A stretch of 64,000 nucleotides of DNA from Nitrospirota bacterium. GTDB taxonomy: Bacteria > Nitrospirota_A > Leptospirillia > Leptospirillales > Leptospirillaceae. Every line of letters begins with the position of its first letter. Positions within the stretch are counted from its first letter, which is position 1. The stretch is taken from NCBI GenBank assembly GCA_021838585.1, contig JAKCDE010000005.1, forward strand, positions 1 to 64,000, read 5' to 3'. The translations under genes were made by a program, and so were the position numbers. Below the pieces are notes generated by a model that was given only the letters and a program-made list of their open reading frames with translations, searched no databases and was not told the origin of the DNA. Shown in pieces: positions 30,951 to 41,042 of the stretch.

Positions 30951-31026
30951 TCCCCGGTAGCTCAGTTGGCAGAGCGGGTGACTGTTAATCACCATGTCGC
31001 AGGTTCGAGCCCTGCCCGGGGAGCCA
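30951..31026 (+). tRNA. tRNA-Asn (anticodon GTT)
   Basis: Full cloverleaf of 76 bases. The acceptor stem TCCCCGG pairs with CCGGGGA. The D-arm contains GCTCAGTTGGCAGAGC, the anticodon stem GGTGA/TCACC holds the loop CTGTTAA, and the T-arm is GCAGGTTCGAGCCCTGC. The 3' CCA is encoded. Confidence 0.97.
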
Positions 31027-32400: not shown

Positions 32401-33582
32401 CTAGACGTAAGTTGCAAATGCCGTTAGCGCGCGATCGAGGGCCTTGTGGCTCTTTCGATACTTTTCCAGGGGGATGCCCTGGGACCAGGCCTCCCAGGAC
32501 TGCCGGATGGATTGACCTCCGGCCCGGGCCCCGTCGGGGTGGCCGCAGACACCGCCTCCGCAAAGATAGGCGAAGTCGGGGCCGAAAAGATCGGCATGGA
32601 CTCCCAGTGTGCCCGCATGCATTCCTCCTCCTACGGCGATCAGGGATGACTTCATCGCCCCCATCGGGATCCGGCAGATCTCCCGAACCGTTTTAAGGTC
32701 CGATTTTTTCGCCTTGAGCGTTCCCTTGAGAGCCGGATAAAGAATGAGATCCGACCCCAGAATCCGCATGAACCGGGCCCAGGCGCGGACCGACATTCCG
32801 TGCTTCTGCCAGAGCCAGTCGCTTGTGGCCATGTGTGCCATGATCGGGACCTGAGAGTGGCGCGCAAGCTCCTCCAGCATGGGAAATCCGCTGGCGGCGG
32901 GAGAGAGCATGGCTATTTTGGCCCCCGTCCGGGCTCCATTAAGATAGCGGTCTATCATGGACTGGGGCCTGTCCACGGTATGCATCATGACCCATTTGGG
33001 CTCTCCCGTCTCGGCTTCGGCCCGACGGGCGGCATCGACCGTTGCCTCGAGCCTTTTGATATAATCGGCTTCCGGCTCCTGCAAAAGCTCATCCGACTTG
33101 ACGACATCCATTCCTCCGACGAGGCTTTCATAGGCGATCGACGCATACTCCTTGGGAGTCAGCCCCTGGGATGGCTTGAGAACGGTGATAAAAAGAGGGC
33201 GCTTCGGGTTTCCTCGTCTTGCGGCGATTCCCTCTTCGCCGAACTGCGGGCCGGGAAGTCTTGAAAGAAGGGCGGAAGAGGGCTCGAAGTCATTGAGTTC
33301 GATCGATTTCAGGATGTTGAGACAGCTGATTTCTCCTGCGATGGAGAGTACGAGCCCATAGGCCGAGGAAATGCGCTGGGAAGGGACCATGATTTCAACG
33401 ATGGCGTATTTCTTTCCTTCCTCGACCTTGAGCGGTTTGGCCGCGAAGCTCTCCGTCCCGGCCGTTTCGTACGCTGTTTTCTTGACTCCGAGACTCATCT
33501 CCCGGGCAATCAGGGCGGCCGCCCTGGGAACGTCGTTGGATCGAATCGTATAGGTTGTCCTGATGATCTCCGGTTTGCTCAT
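32401..33582 (-). CDS. RuBisCO-like protein (form IV, acid-mine-consortium type)
   Basis: A 393-residue large-subunit homologue. The metal-site cluster GGMDVVKSDE keeps the carbamylated-lysine equivalent (K162) with D164 and E165, and the KPSQG motif keeps the catalytic lysine (K136) but has Ser where true RuBisCO has a second lysine. Loop 6 and the SGG region are replaced by GGGMHAGTLG and CGGGVCGHPDG. Such changes argue against carboxylase activity; known form IV proteins act as enolases or isomerases in sulfur metabolism. No methionine-salvage genes are adjacent. The start at ATG 33582 follows AGAGGG; the frame to 33825 has no such site. Confidence 0.9.
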   Translation of the reverse strand: MSKPEIIRTTYTIRSNDVPRAAALIAREMSLGVKKTAYETAGTESFAAKPLKVEEGKKYAIVEIMVPSQRISSAYGLVLSIAGEISCLNILKSIELNDFEPSSALLSRLPGPQFGEEGIAARRGNPKRPLFITVLKPSQGLTPKEYASIAYESLVGGMDVVKSDELLQEPEADYIKRLEATVDAARRAEAETGEPKWVMMHTVDRPQSMIDRYLNGARTGAKIAMLSPAASGFPMLEELARHSQVPIMAHMATSDWLWQKHGMSVRAWARFMRILGSDLILYPALKGTLKAKKSDLKTVREICRIPMGAMKSSLIAVGGGMHAGTLGVHADLFGPDFAYLCGGGVCGHPDGARAGGQSIRQSWEAWSQGIPLEKYRKSHKALDRALTAFATYV

Positions 33583-33706
33583 GAACAAGGCCCTCTGTGC
33601 TATGGGATCGTAGGTGGACGGTGGGAATCCGGTCGCAATCCCATTACAATAGGTCAAAGAGGGAGCCACAGGCAAGGACCCAACTAAAAAGAGAGGATCA
33701 AAACAC

Positions 33707-34390
33707 ATGGGGGACCAGATCAAGGCCTCGGTCGAGGCAGTTGAACAATTTGCCGAAGATGTGAAACTCTTTCGCCTCGTCCCTTGCCAGACGCCGCTTT
33801 CATTTGTCCAGGGCCAGTTCATCAAGGTTCTCTGGGAGGGAGAAAAGGGATCCTATTTTGCGATCGCGTCCCCCCCCTATGAAAATCGATATATTGAAAT
33901 TCTGGTAAAGAAGGGAAAGGGTGTCTCGGAAAAGCTTTTCGACGTCCGGCCCGGACAGAGTGTGGTCTTCGAAGGTCCGTTGGGAAACGGATTTCCACTG
34001 GATCCCCATCGGCACAAGAACCTTCTCTTCGTGGGAGTCGGAACGGCGATTGCCCCGCTCAGATCAACCCTTCTCGAGGCTCTCAGCCGGCGGGACGAGT
34101 TCGGACGCATCGATCTTTATTTCGGAACGATGACTCCGGGACACCTCTATTTTGGTGAAGAGATGCTGGACTGGCACTCCAGGGGGGTCAATGTCGTTGT
34201 GACCGTGACATTTCCGGACGAGAAATGGGACAGCCATTCGGGATTTGTCCAGCATATTCTCCAGCGACAGTCCGATCCTCTCCATCAGACGATCGCCTAT
34301 GTATGCGGCATGAAAGAGATGGTCGAGGAAACAATCTCCGTACTGAAGGGACGGGCCATTCCCGAGGAGCATATTCTCCAGAACATCTGA
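33707..34390 (+). CDS. Stand-alone FAD/NAD(P)-binding oxidoreductase module
   Basis: A 227-residue ferredoxin-NADP reductase-like protein: a FAD-binding barrel (QGQFIKVL, YFAIASPPYENRYIEI) then an NAD(P)-binding domain (LLFVGVGTAIAPLRSTL, YVCGMKEMVEE). No iron-sulfur or cytochrome domain is attached, so it needs a partner such as a ferredoxin, hydroxylase or flavodoxin. It is transcribed divergently from the RuBisCO-like gene across 124 bases, which suggests shared control. AGAGAGGA precedes the ATG. Confidence 0.82.
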   Translation: MGDQIKASVEAVEQFAEDVKLFRLVPCQTPLSFVQGQFIKVLWEGEKGSYFAIASPPYENRYIEILVKKGKGVSEKLFDVRPGQSVVFEGPLGNGFPLDPHRHKNLLFVGVGTAIAPLRSTLLEALSRRDEFGRIDLYFGTMTPGHLYFGEEMLDWHSRGVNVVVTVTFPDEKWDSHSGFVQHILQRQSDPLHQTIAYVCGMKEMVEETISVLKGRAIPEEHILQNI

Positions 34391-34512: not shown

Positions 34513-36225
34513 ATGGACAAGACCGATCCGTTCAGCCGAAAGAAAAGCGACTCCGAAAAAAATGGCGATAAAAAAGAGGGGGCCGTGACGGAACCCTTCT
34601 CGGAGCTGGTTGTCGCCATGGAGCGACTGATCCGCCTCCTTGATGGCAAGGAAGAAGAAATGCGGGAGGCTTACCGGATCAGAAAGAAGCTTCAGGAGTT
34701 TGAAAACGAATGGCAACGGATGCAACATGAGGCGACCCGTCTCTCGGATGTTCTGGAAAAGGTCACGAAGCCAGCCTTCAGGATCGGGACATGCCTCGGA
34801 ATTACGGCCGACGGGCTCGCCTGGGTTTCGGTCGGAGGGGGCGATTACCAGGCAACGGTTGACCCGCGTGTCTCCCTCGATACCCTGAAAAAGGGAGAAC
34901 GGGTCCGTCTCAATGAAGCCCTGTCCATACTGGGGACGGTCGGGCCCGATCTTTCCGGACCAATCGTGCGCGTCGGCCGGCTTCTTCCGGACGGCCGTCT
35001 CGAAATAGGGTCGGATCGTCCTGACAATACGCTGGGAACGGTTCTCGACCGCTCGGACCAGTTGAAAGACGAGGCTCTGTCGACGGGTGATTTTGTACGG
35101 CTCGACAGTACTTCCAGACTGGCAGTGGAAAAGGTCCGCAAACGGGAGGAAAGCTATCTTCTGGCTGAGGTTCCGACAATCGGATGGGAATCGATCGGGG
35201 GCCAGGAGGAGGCGATACGGGAAATCCAGAAGGCCATTCTTAATCCCATTCTGTATCCTGAAGCCTACTCACGGTATGATTTCAAATCTCCCCGAGGCTT
35301 TTTGCTCCATGGGCCACCAGGATGCGGAAAAACCCTGATCGGAAAGGCGACTGCCCGGGAAATCGCCAATCGTCTGGCCCAAAAGGAGGGGCGGACCGTC
35401 AAGGGGGTCTTTTTCCATATCAAGGGACCCGAAATTCTTAATATGTGGCTTGGGGAATCCGAGCGTATCGTCCGCGAGCTTTTCGAGGAGGGCGAAAAGA
35501 TCAGGAAGGGCGGAGATTTTCCCGTTCTGTTCATCGACGAGGCCGAGGCGATTCTCGGGACCAGACGAAACGGACGGGGGTTCAATATTCACAATACGAT
35601 CGTTCCCATGTTCTGCGCTGAGCTCGACGGCCTTGCCGGACCGGCCGGTTTTCAAATGGTGATTCTGGCAACCAATCGCCCGGAGATGATCGATCCCGCC
35701 ATACTGCGGCCCGGACGCATCGACCGGAAAATCAAGGTGAAGCGACCGACCTTCGAGTCTGCGATCGAAATTCTCGGGATTCATCTGGGAGCGGATGTCC
35801 CTGTCCGCTACACCTCGACCGGAAACGACTCCTCCCATGAACGGGAAAAGCTGCTGGAGACCTTCAGGGACAGATTCTTTGCCAGAACTGACGAAAATGC
35901 CGTTTTTGAAGTTTTGCGCAGATCCGGTAAACGAATGGCTATCTACCGATCGGACCTGGCTAGCGGGGCGATCCTCGAGTCGATCACGCTTCGGGCAAAG
36001 GAGCGGGCCCTGTTGCGTGAAATAGAAAGTGGGGACGGTGGTGTCGGCCTCGAGGATCTTCTCTGGGCGGCCCGATGTGAGTATGAGGAGGGGGATATAC
36101 TTCCCCCTGCCGAGATTGCGCTCGAGTGGATGAGCCTCCTTGATATCGATACCCAGGATGTGGTCGATGTCAGAAAGATTCGCTCGACAACAGACTCTGC
36201 CAGAAATCTCAGGACGATCGAATAA
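34513..36225 (+). CDS. arc: Proteasome-activating AAA ATPase (ARC/Mpa-type)
   Basis: Unfoldase that recognises the Pup-like tag and feeds substrates to the 20S core. Of 570 residues, about 30-85 form a coiled coil, about 86-215 form tandem OB barrels and the rest is the AAA module with Walker A GPPGCGKT (267-274), Walker B VLFIDEAE (338-345) and the sensor/arginine-finger segment TNRPEMIDPAILRPGRID. The C-terminus ends in RNLRTIE and lacks the terminal HbYX-type docking motif of Mycobacterium Mpa (QYL). First gene of the proteasome operon. Confidence 0.93.
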   Translation: MDKTDPFSRKKSDSEKNGDKKEGAVTEPFSELVVAMERLIRLLDGKEEEMREAYRIRKKLQEFENEWQRMQHEATRLSDVLEKVTKPAFRIGTCLGITADGLAWVSVGGGDYQATVDPRVSLDTLKKGERVRLNEALSILGTVGPDLSGPIVRVGRLLPDGRLEIGSDRPDNTLGTVLDRSDQLKDEALSTGDFVRLDSTSRLAVEKVRKREESYLLAEVPTIGWESIGGQEEAIREIQKAILNPILYPEAYSRYDFKSPRGFLLHGPPGCGKTLIGKATAREIANRLAQKEGRTVKGVFFHIKGPEILNMWLGESERIVRELFEEGEKIRKGGDFPVLFIDEAEAILGTRRNGRGFNIHNTIVPMFCAELDGLAGPAGFQMVILATNRPEMIDPAILRPGRIDRKIKVKRPTFESAIEILGIHLGADVPVRYTSTGNDSSHEREKLLETFRDRFFARTDENAVFEVLRRSGKRMAIYRSDLASGAILESITLRAKERALLREIESGDGGVGLEDLLWAARCEYEEGDILPPAEIALEWMSLLDIDTQDVVDVRKIRSTTDSARNLRTIE

Positions 36226-36234
36226 GAGGGTCTA

Positions 36235-37776
36235 TTGACGGAAGCTAAGGTTGTGCCGCTCTCTCCAGCCCAGATCGTCGTTGGAATCGAGACGGAGTTC
36301 GGGATCATTCGAAAGGATCTTGAGTCATCCGATCCGGTTCGGGAATCGATGGACCTTGTCAGGGCCTATCGTCCTCATTCCTTTGGGGCATGGGCCTATG
36401 AAGCCGAGGATCCGCGGGCCGATGCCCGGGGATTCCGCGTGGATAGGCTTGCCCAGGACGAGGAAGAGGATGCGTTTGTCCGATCAGACCAGCAACGGAG
36501 TTTTTCGTTCAGGGAATCGAAAAGCGACAGGATCCTTCAGAACGGAGCCCGCTTTTACAATGATCATACCCACCCTGAATACGCCACTCCCGAATGCCGC
36601 ACACTGCGTGACCTTATCCTTTACGATCGGGCCGGCACAGAGGTCGTCAGACAGGCCGTCAAGGCCCGGGAAGCGGAGCTCAACTCTTCCGGGGCGCTGG
36701 GTCTCTATCGGAACAATACCGATTTTCATGGTCACAGCTACGGATGCCATGAAAACTACCTTCTTCCACGAAGCCTCCCGTTTGGCAGGATTGTGGAGGG
36801 CGTGACCCCCTTTCTGGTGGCCCGGACCATTCTCCTGGGGGCTGGCAAAGTCGGAATGGAGGGGGCGGACGGCTTTTCCCGGGAGGGATATCAGCTGTCC
36901 CAGCGGGCGGATTTCATCGAGGAGCGGATCGGGGTCAACACGATGCACCATCGTCCCATCGTGAACAGCCGGGACGAGCCTCATGCCGATCGTACCCGTT
37001 ACCGGAGGCTGCACCTGATCTGCGGAGATGCAAACATGTCCGAGTGGCAAACCGCCATGAAGGTAGGGATGACCCGCCTCGTTCTCTCGGCCGTAGCCTC
37101 TCTTCCTCAGGACAAGTTTCCTATACTGGCCGATCCGGTTCACGCTTTCCGCCTTGTATCCCGCTCTGTCAACGGGAACGTCCTGTTGGCGCTGGATGGG
37201 GGGGAAACAATGACCTCCATGGAGCTTCTCCTTGTATACAGGGATCTGTGTTCACAGCTGGTGATGGATTCTGAAGGGGAGTGGATCATTTCGGAATGGA
37301 CCAAAGCCATGGAGGACCACCAAAAGGATCCGGAGCGCTTGGCCGACCGCGTTGACTGGATAGCCAAGCGGCAGCTTCTGGAACTATTCCGGAATGAAGA
37401 AGGACTCTCGCCGGGCGATCCATGGTTTCAAAGCCTGGATCTCGCCTATCATGATCTCGACCAGGATCTGGGAATGTTCTGGCCCCTGGAATCGGAGGGC
37501 CGGATGGTGCGGTTGACCGATCCCGGAGAGGTGGAGGATGCGATGATTGTTCCGCCTGCGCTGGGACGAGCCCGCATTCGTGCGGCCGTTCTTAATCGGT
37601 ATGAAAAAGAGATCCGTGATGCTGGGTGGGAACGGATCGCTTTTGTCGATGGGAGTTATATCGATCTCCCCCTCTTCATGACCCTGGATCGGGAGAATGT
37701 TGAAAATCTTTGCAGGAAGATTGAGGCTTGCGAGGAAAGGGTCAATCTGTCTGGAATTCTGTCAGGCATAGAATAG
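36235..37776 (+). CDS. dop: Dop-type deamidase/depupylase homologue
   Basis: Prepares the C-terminus of the Pup-like tag and removes it from substrates. The 513-residue chain belongs to the carboxylate-amine ligase fold shared by Dop and PafA: GIETEFG (17-23), FYNDHTHPEYATPECRT and SYGCHENYLLPR. Between the first two motifs it has about 25 extra residues compared with the second homologue at 39609, matching the Dop loop that distinguishes Dop from PafA. It starts with TTG after GAGGG, nine bases past arc and nine before the ubact stop-to-start gap. Confidence 0.9.
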   Translation: MTEAKVVPLSPAQIVVGIETEFGIIRKDLESSDPVRESMDLVRAYRPHSFGAWAYEAEDPRADARGFRVDRLAQDEEEDAFVRSDQQRSFSFRESKSDRILQNGARFYNDHTHPEYATPECRTLRDLILYDRAGTEVVRQAVKAREAELNSSGALGLYRNNTDFHGHSYGCHENYLLPRSLPFGRIVEGVTPFLVARTILLGAGKVGMEGADGFSREGYQLSQRADFIEERIGVNTMHHRPIVNSRDEPHADRTRYRRLHLICGDANMSEWQTAMKVGMTRLVLSAVASLPQDKFPILADPVHAFRLVSRSVNGNVLLALDGGETMTSMELLLVYRDLCSQLVMDSEGEWIISEWTKAMEDHQKDPERLADRVDWIAKRQLLELFRNEEGLSPGDPWFQSLDLAYHDLDQDLGMFWPLESEGRMVRLTDPGEVEDAMIVPPALGRARIRAAVLNRYEKEIRDAGWERIAFVDGSYIDLPLFMTLDRENVENLCRKIEACEERVNLSGILSGIE

Positions 37777-37785
37777 GGAGGAGCC

Positions 37786-38019
37786 ATGGAAAAGCTCGCT
37801 TGGTCCAAGTTTTTACCTGATAACGATCCATTTGGTTCACAAGCTTTCTCGCTTGATGAGCAGGAACGGGTTCCATTCCCTACCCGGCGCGGAACGAATC
37901 CGGAGAGCCCTGCGCCAAGGAATCTGGATCCAAAGCCGACGAAGGATCGCATGATGGACAGAATGCGAAAAGTAGATCCGAAGCAGTCCGAACGATATCG
38001 CCAGAGGACCGGAGAATAG
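37786..38019 (+). CDS. UBact, Pup-like protein tag
   Basis: A 77-residue, highly charged, disordered-looking protein without hydrophobic core, as for Pup. It ends in RQRTGE: the terminal Gly-Glu is the form from which the side-chain carboxylate can be ligated to lysines. It is located between the Dop-type and proteasome beta genes, exactly where Pup lies in Actinobacteria. Its overall sequence is not similar to actinobacterial Pup; it corresponds to the UBact tag described in Nitrospirae and relatives. GGGAGGAG precedes the ATG by two to six bases. Confidence 0.88.
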   Translation: MEKLAWSKFLPDNDPFGSQAFSLDEQERVPFPTRRGTNPESPAPRNLDPKPTKDRMMDRMRKVDPKQSERYRQRTGE

Positions 38020-38045
38020 GGTGTCCGAGGGGCCAGGGAGAAAGG

Positions 38046-38870
38046 ATGAATATGGGAGGAGGGACGTTGAGGATTGATCAGGAGGGGGGACCTTATCCGC
38101 CGAACACAGGGTATTTTCCGGATCTTCTGAAAAGGATCCCCGTCCAGGGGGCGCCGTCCAGGGAAAGGGCGCCTCTTCCTGGCGCCTCTCACGGAACCAC
38201 AATTCTGGCCTTTCATTTCCAGAATGGAGTTCTTGTTGCGGGGGATCGACGGGCGACAGCCTCCAACCGGATTATGTCGAACCGTGTCGACAAGGTGCTG
38301 GAGATAGACGATTCGGCACTTCTGGCCATTTCCGGGTCTCCGGCCATGGCGCTTGAAATGGCCCGGGTTCTTGATCATTCCCTCAAATATTATCGGCGGA
38401 GCCAGTTGACTGAAATTTCCCTGGAGGGAAAGGTTCGCATTCTTGCCCAGCTCCTTAAGGAAAATCTTCCGATGGCCGTGGAAGGGATAGGAGCCGTGGT
38501 TCCCCTTTTTGTGGCCAGGGATCCCGATTCACGAATCGTCCGTATCTATTTCTATGACATCCTGGGCGCTCACTTCGAAGGGGTCGAGTTTTCTGTCGGA
38601 GGCTCCGGTTCTCCGGAGGTCCAGGGAATCCTGCGCTATCTCGACCGCTGGAGTCCGCATCCCCTTCGGGAAATGTCCCGAGAAGAGGCTATCGTTCTCG
38701 CCCTTCGTCTTCTTGAAACGGCTTCCTACTTCGACTCGGCAACGGGGGGGATCGATTCGCAGGATCCGATCTGGCCTGTGATGAAAATCTTGACTGCGGA
38801 AACACTCGAAACTGTTGATGAGCCGACGCTGTCCACGATTTACAGAAACGAGGTGATGCGTGTTCGATGA
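38046..38870 (+). CDS. prcB: 20S proteasome beta subunit
   Basis: Proteolytic subunit of the core particle. The 274-residue precursor has a 50-residue propeptide ending in SHG, so cleavage would expose Thr51 (TTILAF) as the catalytic nucleophile. The following GDRRAT and VDKVLEI carry the expected active-site aspartate and lysine. The fold is Ntn-hydrolase. It overlaps the alpha-subunit gene by 11 bases. Confidence 0.95.
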   Translation: MNMGGGTLRIDQEGGPYPPNTGYFPDLLKRIPVQGAPSRERAPLPGASHGTTILAFHFQNGVLVAGDRRATASNRIMSNRVDKVLEIDDSALLAISGSPAMALEMARVLDHSLKYYRRSQLTEISLEGKVRILAQLLKENLPMAVEGIGAVVPLFVARDPDSRIVRIYFYDILGAHFEGVEFSVGGSGSPEVQGILRYLDRWSPHPLREMSREEAIVLALRLLETASYFDSATGGIDSQDPIWPVMKILTAETLETVDEPTLSTIYRNEVMRVR

Positions 38871-39612
38871 GCCCTACCGTTGGATCGATGCCATTCATCA
38901 GCGGAGGGATTATATCGCCGAGCAGCTAGACAGGGCGACCCCCGTCATCGGAATATCCGTCTCCGAAGGAATCCTCCTTGTCTCCTATCATCGCCAGAAC
39001 CCCAAAATTTATGAATTGTACGACCGGATCGCATTGGCCGGAATCGGCCATCCTGCAGACCTTGAGACGGTCAGGGGCATACTTCTCAATATGGCCCATG
39101 TCGAGGGATTCCAGCGATCGGTTTCCGATGTCAGCATCGAACGTCTGGCCCTTTTTGGCCTGGCTCCCCGCCTGAAGGCGGCTTATGAAGATATCTCGGC
39201 TCCTCCGATCATTCTCGATGTCCTGTTGTCCGAAGTCGGACGGACTCCTTCGGAGGACCGTTTCATCAAGGTGTCGTTTGACGGGAATCTGGAACGCTCC
39301 GTGGGTACGATGGTCCTGGCACCGACAGAGGAGGTCGATCTTAAGGTGGCAGGCCTTTTGAAAGAGCGGATCCCGCGCGAAGAACGGACTCTTCGTAAGG
39401 TTGTGTCGGCCCTTCCCGGTGTTTTTGTGGAAACTCTCTTTACCCGGGAGGAACGGGGGCTGGATGACTCCGGTAATCTTATCAGCCCTGAAAAACTTTC
39501 GGAGTGCGAAAGGATTTTGCGGGAGGATCGCCAGTGGGAGGGTGTTTTTCTCGACCGTCAGGCGCCGTCCAGGATAAAAAAGTTAAACGAGACGGGGGAT
39601 TTTCTCCTTTGA
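38860..39612 (+). CDS. prcA: 20S proteasome alpha subunit
   Basis: Structural ring subunit that gates the core particle. The 250-residue protein opens with YRWIDAIHQRRDYIAEQLDR, the gate helix region, followed by GISVSEGILLVSYHR and the YDRIALAGIGHPADLE block. It lacks a propeptide and catalytic Thr. The start is GTG 38860 with GAGG upstream, inside the end of prcB, so synthesis of alpha and beta is coupled. Confidence 0.93.
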   Translation: MFDEPYRWIDAIHQRRDYIAEQLDRATPVIGISVSEGILLVSYHRQNPKIYELYDRIALAGIGHPADLETVRGILLNMAHVEGFQRSVSDVSIERLALFGLAPRLKAAYEDISAPPIILDVLLSEVGRTPSEDRFIKVSFDGNLERSVGTMVLAPTEEVDLKVAGLLKERIPREERTLRKVVSALPGVFVETLFTREERGLDDSGNLISPEKLSECERILREDRQWEGVFLDRQAPSRIKKLNETGDFLL

Positions 39613-41042
39613 AGTTCTTGTGCGGCATAGAGACCGAATATGGTCTTCTGATCAGGGACTGGGACGGGAAAGGTTCCTCGATGATCCGCCAGGAAGAACT
39701 TTTCCGGCGGGTGCGCGATTACCTTTTTTTTGAAAAAAAAGCCGGCCTGATCGATTTGCATCAGCGCGCTTACGACGAGCCTCCCGGCAACGGAGGATTC
39801 CTGAAAAACGGGGGCCGACTGTATATCGACATGGGACATGTGGAATACGCTTCTCCGGAATGCGGCACGATCCTTGATCTTGTCGCCATGGATCGGGCCG
39901 GTGATCTCCTGCTTGAACAATCCATAAGAGAGCTTGGTCTCTCTAAAAGCATCTCCTTCATCAAAAACAACATCGATCATCAGACACTGGCCACCTTCGG
40001 ATCCCATGAAAACTATTCGGTTCCTCGAAGCTTTCCATTCAATGAGCGGGGGCTTGATCCTCTCGTCGCCTTTCTCGTCACCCGGCAAATCTTTTCAGGA
40101 GCCGGACGCGTCGGAGCCTCGATCATCAACGACAGTCTGATCTCGCTGGACGATTCCATCCCTGAGATTCCTTTCCAGATTTCCCAGAGGTCGGACTATG
40201 TGGTCAACAAGTTTTATCAATGGGTTCAGATGAATCGCTCCATTGTGAATACGCGTGACGAACCGCTGGCCGATCCCTTGCAATTCCGCCGCATTCATCT
40301 CCTTCTCGGAGACTCGAACATGTCCCAGTATGCGCTGGCGCTCAAAGCCGGCACGACAAGACTTGTCCTTGGCTTGATCGAGCGGGGGGAGGCCCCCTGG
40401 ATTCCGATCGCCGATCCGGTTCAGGCCATCAGATCTCTTTCGCACGACCTCTCGATGAACTGGCCTGTGGAGGTCGGAGGAGAGGGCATCATGAGCGCCG
40501 TTGATGTTCAGGGAAAATTCTATGAGGCGGCTGAAAAGGCCTTTAGGGGAGAAAGCGATGATGCGGACTGGATTCTGGATGCCTGGAACGAGATCCTGAC
40601 CGATCTTGATAAAAAGGACCCGGAGATCGTGGCAGACCGTGTCGATTGGGCCCAGAAATATGTGCTTCTCGATGCCTTCAGGAAAGAGGAGGGGCTGTCC
40701 TGGGAGGACCCATGGATGGAAAGCCTCGATCTCGCCTACCATGACCTCAACCCGGATACGGGACTTTTCTATCCCCTTGAAGAGGACGGAACCCACAGAA
40801 GACTGGTTTCTCCGTCGGCCATACGGGCCGCTTCGGAAATCGGTCCGGCAGGCACCAGGGCCCAAGGCCGGTCTGAAGCCGTTCACCGGATTCTTGAGGG
40901 GAAATCCGGAAAAAAGGTCTCCGATTACATCATCCAGTGGTTCGGTGTCCAGATTGACGGAGGGGAGATCCTTTACATGCTGGATCCTTACAAAACCTAC
41001 CGTCGTGAAGTCGCTTCCTATTTCTCCGAGGGGGGGCAGTGA
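39609..41042 (+). CDS. pafA: PafA-type ligase of the Pup-like tag
   Basis: Attaches the deamidated tag through its C-terminal glutamate to substrate lysines. The 477-residue chain shows CGIETEYG right at the start, NGGRLYIDMGHVEYASPECGT, FGSHENYSVPRSFPF and the C-terminal segment of the family. It lacks the extra loop present in the Dop homologue. TTG 39609 overlaps the prcA stop (TTGA) and puts the conserved motif at the N-terminus; the frame continues back to 39504 inside prcA. Confidence 0.9.
   Translation: MKFLCGIETEYGLLIRDWDGKGSSMIRQEELFRRVRDYLFFEKKAGLIDLHQRAYDEPPGNGGFLKNGGRLYIDMGHVEYASPECGTILDLVAMDRAGDLLLEQSIRELGLSKSISFIKNNIDHQTLATFGSHENYSVPRSFPFNERGLDPLVAFLVTRQIFSGAGRVGASIINDSLISLDDSIPEIPFQISQRSDYVVNKFYQWVQMNRSIVNTRDEPLADPLQFRRIHLLLGDSNMSQYALALKAGTTRLVLGLIERGEAPWIPIADPVQAIRSLSHDLSMNWPVEVGGEGIMSAVDVQGKFYEAAEKAFRGESDDADWILDAWNEILTDLDKKDPEIVADRVDWAQKYVLLDAFRKEEGLSWEDPWMESLDLAYHDLNPDTGLFYPLEEDGTHRRLVSPSAIRAASEIGPAGTRAQGRSEAVHRILEGKSGKKVSDYIIQWFGVQIDGGEILYMLDPYKTYRREVASYFSEGGQ

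Follow-up and report, generated by a model that had tools for sequence, protein, structure and literature searches.

UBact is a family of protein tags that is said to have been described by Lehmann et al. in 2017 (BBRC 483:946). The subject here is a UBact locus of a Nitrospirota bacterium from the Leptospirillaceae (contig JAKCDE010000005.1, positions 1 to 64,000; this whole stretch of 64,000 nucleotides is called the window), where the tag gene ubact stands among the genes arc, dop, prcB, prcA and pafA, whose products have homologues in the Pup-proteasome system of actinobacteria. By 2012 a pupylation locus of Leptospirillum had been published (PMC3511204); the genus is also named in PMC2588565, and PMC4478699 cites De Mot 2007 and Goltsman 2009 for its proteasome. 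According to the passages concerned, at three sites with acid mine drainage proteasome genes made up 0.44-1.45% of L. ferrodiazotrophum transcript abundance (PMC4478699), and a gene of L. ferriphilum annotated as Pup, which could be either UBact or Pup, was up 4.2-fold on adaptation to NaCl (PMC9053815).

The window's genome has a complete UBact system beside a canonical Pup-proteasome system, and the two differ in sequence in ways that are conserved across relatives. Judging from these differences, it is likely that the two systems are insulated from each other at two interfaces. The presence of dual, differently keyed systems is the part of the results that deserves a second look.

The UBact operon and its conservation

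An earlier note on this DNA had proposed a complete six-gene UBact-proteasome operon with a 77-residue Pup-like tag ending in Gly-Glu, and both claims were borne out. All six frames are open on the + strand from 34,513 to 41,042 in the order arc-dop-ubact-prcB-prcA-pafA, as the note had it, and family models match each part (Table 1). Gaps of 9, 9 and 26 bases separate arc from dop, dop from ubact and ubact from prcB; prcB and prcA overlap by 11 bases, and pafA begins with a TTG that overlaps the TGA stop codon of prcA. That the six genes are a UBact-type operon is near certain, and the operon belongs to an established family (PF20513, NF033388), not a new one.

The 77-residue protein passed both curated UBact models, with 54.5 bits against a cut-off of 27.8 for PF20513 and 62 against 35 for NF033388. 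In the comparison with UBact and Pup profiles that the note had suggested, the Pup family (PF05639) gave no match in Pfam up to an E value of 10, UBact being the sole family listed. The window's tag is basic and ends in TGE, whereas Pup is an acidic tag ending in GG[EQ]. The note had also held that its claim would fall if close relatives failed to conserve the Gly-Glu ending. UBact was present in 17 of the 21 genomes of the window's family and all 17 tags end in G[EQ] (14 GE and 3 GQ), so that this test was passed. The same C terminus was found in all 49 UBact sequences collected (39 GE, 10 GQ) and in 79 of 80 named Nitrospira loci, one reading ending in TV. One UBact match was obtained in the window's own genome, where the contig (C4) is listed with a length of 44760 even though the window is placed at 449-64448 of it. 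A candidate second UBact gene in another genome (G140; 26.1 bits, under the cut-off) proved to be a low-complexity frame without neighbours and was taken as chance.

The grouping of the six genes recurs in relatives. All six were found in 45 of 49 stretches (the window and L048-L095); the exceptions are one stretch with no gene of the set (L088), one with no prcB or prcA match (L074) and two in which arc is not linked (L075 and L080), the former of which stops at a contig end. The full set is present in 72 of the 80 named Nitrospira loci, 71 of these in the window's order; these genomes partly overlap with those of the phylum sample used below. The grouping is therefore not due to chance. The operon borders given in the note also hold. 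The flanking reductase and RuBisCO-like genes were found next to the operon within the window's genus but not beyond that genus and are therefore not counted as part of the operon, while the six genes are a unit conserved across families.

The five larger proteins of the operon all score under the equivalog cut-offs of NCBIfam. The ATPase ARC is above the cut-offs of PF00004, PF17758 and PF16450 in Pfam but gave 360.1 bits against TIGR03689 (cut-off 504.75), for which the genome's other ARC gave 718.6; its closest solved relative is 5kwa, a 'Proteasome-associated ATPase' (E 1.5e-77). PrcB is above the cut-off of PF00227 (86.9 bits) and gave 158.5 bits against TIGR03690 (cut-off 191.9). Dop matched PF03136 (Pup_ligase) with 495 bits, and TIGR03688 (Dop) with 419.5 bits (cut-off 492.3) versus 329.2 for TIGR03686 (PafA). 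PafA matched PF03136 with 413 bits and TIGR03686 with 295.2 bits (cut-off 551.3). PrcA had no match in Pfam, and its best match by phmmer to solved bacterial alpha subunits had an E value of 2.2e-6.

Table 1. Features of the window at and near the UBact operon
Feature	Position	Strand	Remarks
arc, proteasomal AAA ATPase, 570 aa	34513..36225	+	coiled coil, OB domains, AAA module, WLG pore loop
last three arc codons, Thr-Ile-Glu	36214..36222	+	canonical ARC here has penultimate Tyr (GQYL/GHYL)
dop, deconjugase/deamidase, 513 aa, TTG start	36235..37776	+	PF03136, TIGR03688, Dop-loop
ubact, 77-residue tag	37786..38019	+	PF20513, NF033388
C-terminal Gly-Glu codons of the tag	38011..38016	+	conserved G[EQ] ending
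prcB, 20S beta with propeptide	38046..38870	+	PF00227, TIGR03690
predicted catalytic Thr1 codon of mature beta	38196..38198	+	Thr1/Asp17/Lys33 pattern
prcA, 20S alpha, strongly diverged, GTG start	38860..39612	+	TIGR03691
Trp-Ile-Asp-Ala	38881..38892	+	stands where canonical alpha has the Ser-Pro-Glu-Gln turn (equivalence read from N termini)
pafA, presumed ligase, 477 aa, TTG start	39609..41042	+	PF03136; without Dop-loop
RuBisCO-like protein	32401..33825	-	PF00016; adjoins flavin reductase
tRNA-Asn	30951..31026		the window's only match to an RNA family at gathering score

A Pup operon in the same genome

UBact is not the cell's only tag system. A proteasome-domain search of the window's own genome found, besides the window's prcB, one pair on a second contig, C51, where a complete canonical Pup operon lies (stretch L109, 5917-12475). 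It encodes an ARC ending in VGHYL, Dop, a 66-residue Pup ending in GGQ, PrcB, PrcA and PafA. Four of its six proteins pass the NCBIfam cut-offs and the other two fall just short, Dop with 485.7 against 492.3 and PafA with 528.6 against 551.3.

The Pup operon is on a different contig from the window and its GC content is higher (0.62 versus 0.57), which would suit a binning error, the organism having UBact alone. Such an error is scarcely credible. Among 11 family genomes that were compared, 10, including the window's own, have the higher GC content in the Pup stretch, G009 being the exception. The Pup-side PafA of the window's genome groups with those of two family members, G018 and G001, and in other parts of the phylum both tags are found in genomes that are complete or consist of a single contig. 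Within the family itself both tags were found in 11 of the 21 genomes, UBact alone in 6, Pup alone in 3 and neither in 1.

Coexistence is the usual state of UBact carriers in the phylum. Among 395 genomes evenly drawn from a larger group, UBact was found in 132, and 122 of these carriers have Pup too; UBact alone was seen in 10, Pup alone in 60 and neither in 203. Pup was also listed in 13 of the 14 UBact carriers assembled as a single contig, the exception being G004. Single-contig genomes had four Pup-ligase genes each in G140, G148 and G251 and two each in G004 and G089, and in both N. moscoviensis and N. defluvii the complete chromosome carries four Pup-ligase genes and one Pup. N. moscoviensis strain NSP M-1, which can be cultured, has both systems. 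No report of UBact and Pup in one genome was found in the literature searched, outside which lay the founding UBact paper and most subscription papers. The coexistence raises the question of how one cell separates two tag systems.

In two families, f10 and f18, pup stands without other operon genes in all 15 Pup stretches, the rest of the operon lying elsewhere in the six genomes fetched. By eye, this lone pup is near DHH-type and RelA/SpoT-like genes (L174, L182 and L188 compared with L209-L211). One draft genome, G015, has two Pup operons on separate contigs (L154 and L155), for which a mixture of strains is possible; it supplies two of the Pup-side rows in the comparisons that follow.

Tag charge and the ATPase-core dock

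From homology to the Pup pathway, the UBact-side PafA would use ATP to activate the C-terminal Glu of the tag at its side chain and would join the tag to substrate lysines, and the UBact-side Dop would remove the tag and, in relatives whose tag ends in Gln, deamidate it. The UBact-side ARC would then thread the tagged protein by its WLG pore loops into the core formed by the UBact-side PrcA and PrcB, where Thr1 of the beta subunit would cut the substrate. We read the two operons as tag-proteasome systems that coexist in one cell but are insulated from each other, a reading that the sequences suggest at two places.

The first interface would be that between the tag and its enzymes, which appear to have shifted to opposite charge relative to Pup and its enzymes. 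The isoelectric points of the tags do not overlap, being 9.10-10.58 for UBact (n=49) and 4.43-5.54 for Pup (n=42). The mean whole-protein charge, calculated without proteins under a minimum length, was -22.7 for UBact-side PafA (n=48, -30 to -12) versus -9.8 for Pup-side PafA (n=28, -17 to +3), and -21.7 for UBact-side Dop (n=49, -34 to -11) versus -9.4 for Pup-side Dop (n=33, -15 to +2), so that the UBact-side ligase and depupylase are 12-13 charges more acidic on average. The means for PrcB showed no difference (-3.7 on the UBact side and -3.9 on the Pup side); PrcA was more acidic on the UBact side (-8.0 versus -3.2) and ARC less so (-9.5 versus -13.0).

The second interface would be the dock between ATPase and core, which may have been re-keyed by the change of a C-terminal Tyr to Ile or Val together with the loss of a Pro turn in the alpha subunit. 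In other proteasomes this alpha turn touches the ATPase tail. Docking of proteasomal ATPases is taken to rely on a C-terminal tail whose penultimate residue is Tyr (PMC8755798). The window's ARC ends in TIE and lacks the penultimate Tyr of canonical ARC/Mpa. Leaving aside ATPases cut off before the stop codon, the penultimate residue on the UBact side was Ile in 40, Val in 5 and Lys in 1 (n=46), whereas it was Tyr in 33 of 33 on the Pup side; the actinobacterial reference ATPase, from Nonomuraea, ends in TGQYL. The tails of 77 UBact-side ATPases from named Nitrospira were QII in 69, HII in 5, PII in 2 and RSG in 1. A literature search for isoleucine in the HbYX motif of Mpa gave no match. In the alpha subunit, W[IVTA][DE]A was found in 49 of 49 UBact-side sequences and the Pro turn in 32 of 32 Pup-side ones (31 from the phylum and one from Nonomuraea). 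On our own reading of the N termini, the window's Trp-Ile-Asp-Ala site would be equivalent to the Pro turn. The pocket Lys of alpha is kept in all UBact-side and Pup-side sequences compared.

Since a penultimate Tyr occurs in none of the UBact-side ATPases, neither the 46 nor the named Nitrospira ones, it might be asked whether UBact is mainly a reversible, non-degradative mark and its ARC does not dock on a core. In G130 and G395, reduced loci still hold ubact and dop although no intact core is linked to them, which speaks for such a mark; the second of these loci (L112) has dop and ubact only. In G130 the UBact-side core is reduced to a fused frame of 180 residues. Its N-terminal part matches PrcB (E 1e-19) and its C-terminal part matches PrcA from residue 143 onwards (E 4e-28), with an overlap between the matched regions because alpha and beta are homologous. 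A proteasome-domain search of the whole G130 genome gave the Pup-side pair and one gene on its contig C10, with no UBact-side beta. The ARC of G130 ends in YAPKN and not in Ile/Val-X, although it is 73% identical to that of a relative over residues 1-509. The genome with this fused prcB-prcA remnant is thus the single tail exception among the 46 ATPases. In another genome, G351, an arc fragment on a different contig retains the ending TII. Conservation of the Ile/Val-X tail alongside intact cores and its loss in the single broken-core case argue against a non-degradative mark, as do the place of prcB and prcA inside the operon, the presence of Thr1, Asp17 and Lys33 in 49 of 49 UBact-side betas (33 of 35 on the Pup side, the other 2 being missed by the pattern) and a UBact-only clade, G004-G006, that keeps all six genes. 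We regard such a mark as quite improbable.

Several results weigh against two insulated systems. The charge ranges of PafA and of Dop overlap between the sides, and the shift is one of whole-protein charge. The coiled coil of ARC is the part that would bind the tag, and it shows no charge swap, with means of +0.63 on the UBact side and +0.55 on the Pup side, measured only on the sequences caught by a pattern (41 and 20 respectively). One of the 77 named Nitrospira ATPases has the RSG ending, and the loss in G130 is one case from a draft genome in which an assembly error is possible. No Pup gene was seen in 10 UBact carriers, which include the single-contig genome G004 as well as G180, whose completeness is given as 99%, and the Fisher p value of 5e-43 for co-occurrence of UBact and Pup in the 395 genomes ignores kinship. 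The NCBIfam models score the window's PafA alike, with 295.2 for PafA and 294.9 for Dop. The window's PrcA reached only 55.1 bits against TIGR03691, under the equivalog cut-off of 139.05 (E still 7e-15), and its AlphaFold2 model, built from an alignment of the window protein with 30 of the 75 distinct relatives found, was too poor to use at a predicted local distance difference test score (pLDDT) of 57. The 50 Foldseek matches listed for this model all have proteasome titles, at template modelling scores (query) of 0.26-0.35, 2 of them at E <=0.001.

Some of these points would fit overlapping systems, in which both tags are handled by one ATPase or one core, the differences having arisen by drift since an old duplication. 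The unswapped coiled coil is one; others are the triad of beta and the pocket Lys of alpha, which both sides share, and the lone pup in 15 of 15 f10/f18 stretches. Overlap nevertheless seems unlikely given that both full enzyme sets are kept together in single-contig and complete genomes, that the alpha turn differs without exception and the ATPase tail in 45 of 46 versus 33 of 33, and that the mean charge of the enzymes is shifted opposite to that of the tag. Two insulated systems remain our preferred reading.

Ligase, depupylase and comparison with described systems

The product of the window's pafA is presumed to be the ligase because of its position in the operon and because it lacks the Dop-loop. 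This loop was seen in the alignment of the window's Dop and is common to Dop of both sides; a strict pattern for it matched 34 of 51 UBact-side Dop, 29 of 35 Pup-side Dop and 0 of 82 PafA. According to Table 1 of PMC7947786, PafA is marked by a one-residue insertion next to the catalytic Asp. UBact-side PafA has the catalytic loop DMGH[LVI]EY, one residue shorter than that of Pup-side PafA and without the insertion: the loop has 7 residues in the UBact-side sequences that a pattern caught, which were 38 of 50, and 8 in 31 of 32 Pup-side ones. In the alignment rows viewed, the alpha-loop of UBact-side PafA (FYQWVQMNR in the window) differs from that of Pup-side Dop and PafA.

The missing insertion (PMC7947786 Table 1) and the full-length trees could suggest that the UBact-side ligase and depupylase arose independently of the Pup-side ones. 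These trees, with one actinobacterial reference only (Nonomuraea, whose Dop/PafA pair groups with the Pup-side pair), joined UBact-side Dop and PafA with support of 98/98 and gave p 0.035 in the approximately unbiased (AU) test against a Dop|PafA split, a split named after the tree had been seen. The join was stronger with trait columns removed (AU p 0.0024) and was retained under charge-blind recoding, the Shimodaira-Hasegawa-like approximate likelihood ratio test (SH-aLRT) and bootstrap supports being 98.9/99 without the trait columns and 77.4/77 with them. However, the signal is local. With segment borders picked from the same data, columns 1-250 favour the Dop|PafA split (96/91), the other split not being rejected there (AU p 0.096), and in columns 250-400 Dop and PafA of the UBact side group together (100/100), with an AU p of 8e-7 against Dop|PafA. 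Such a mosaic would be produced by gene conversion, or if both enzymes had adapted in parallel to the same tag, and the Dop-loop is shared by Dop of both sides. An independent origin was therefore dropped and is held very improbable. We read the pattern in columns 250-400 as concerted change in two enzymes that would read one tag, through gene conversion or parallel selection.

We put forward for the Nitrospirota more widely, and tentatively, that two systems may be insulated in one cytoplasm by inversion of tag and enzyme charge and by a dock without the penultimate tyrosine, with the segment of ligase and depupylase downstream of the catalytic core having evolved in concert for the same new tag. 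If this is true, the conserved tail without Tyr and the alpha subunit without the Pro turn would show that an ATPase-core dock can be re-keyed, and two tag systems of opposite charge in one cell would offer a natural test of how specificity is encoded in ubiquitin-like systems.

With regard to described systems, the Leptospirillum pupylation locus of PMC3511204 belongs to the same pathway and presumably to the same organism group. The passages of that paper concerned with it describe one locus, of probable acidimicrobial origin, which may be either of the two operons, and those passages make no mention of two. With the UBact family (PF20513, NF033388) the window's operon shares the same tag and its C-terminal G[EQ], and its gene order is as in the relatives examined here. 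With the actinobacterial Pup-proteasome (PafA, Dop, Mpa/ARC and PrcAB) it has in common six homologous parts, a Thr1 core and a Dop-loop in Dop only. The Pup side has an acidic tag, a tail with penultimate Tyr, the alpha Pro turn and the insertion in the catalytic loop of PafA, whereas the UBact side has a basic tag and an Ile/Val-X tail, with neither the alpha Pro turn nor the PafA insertion.

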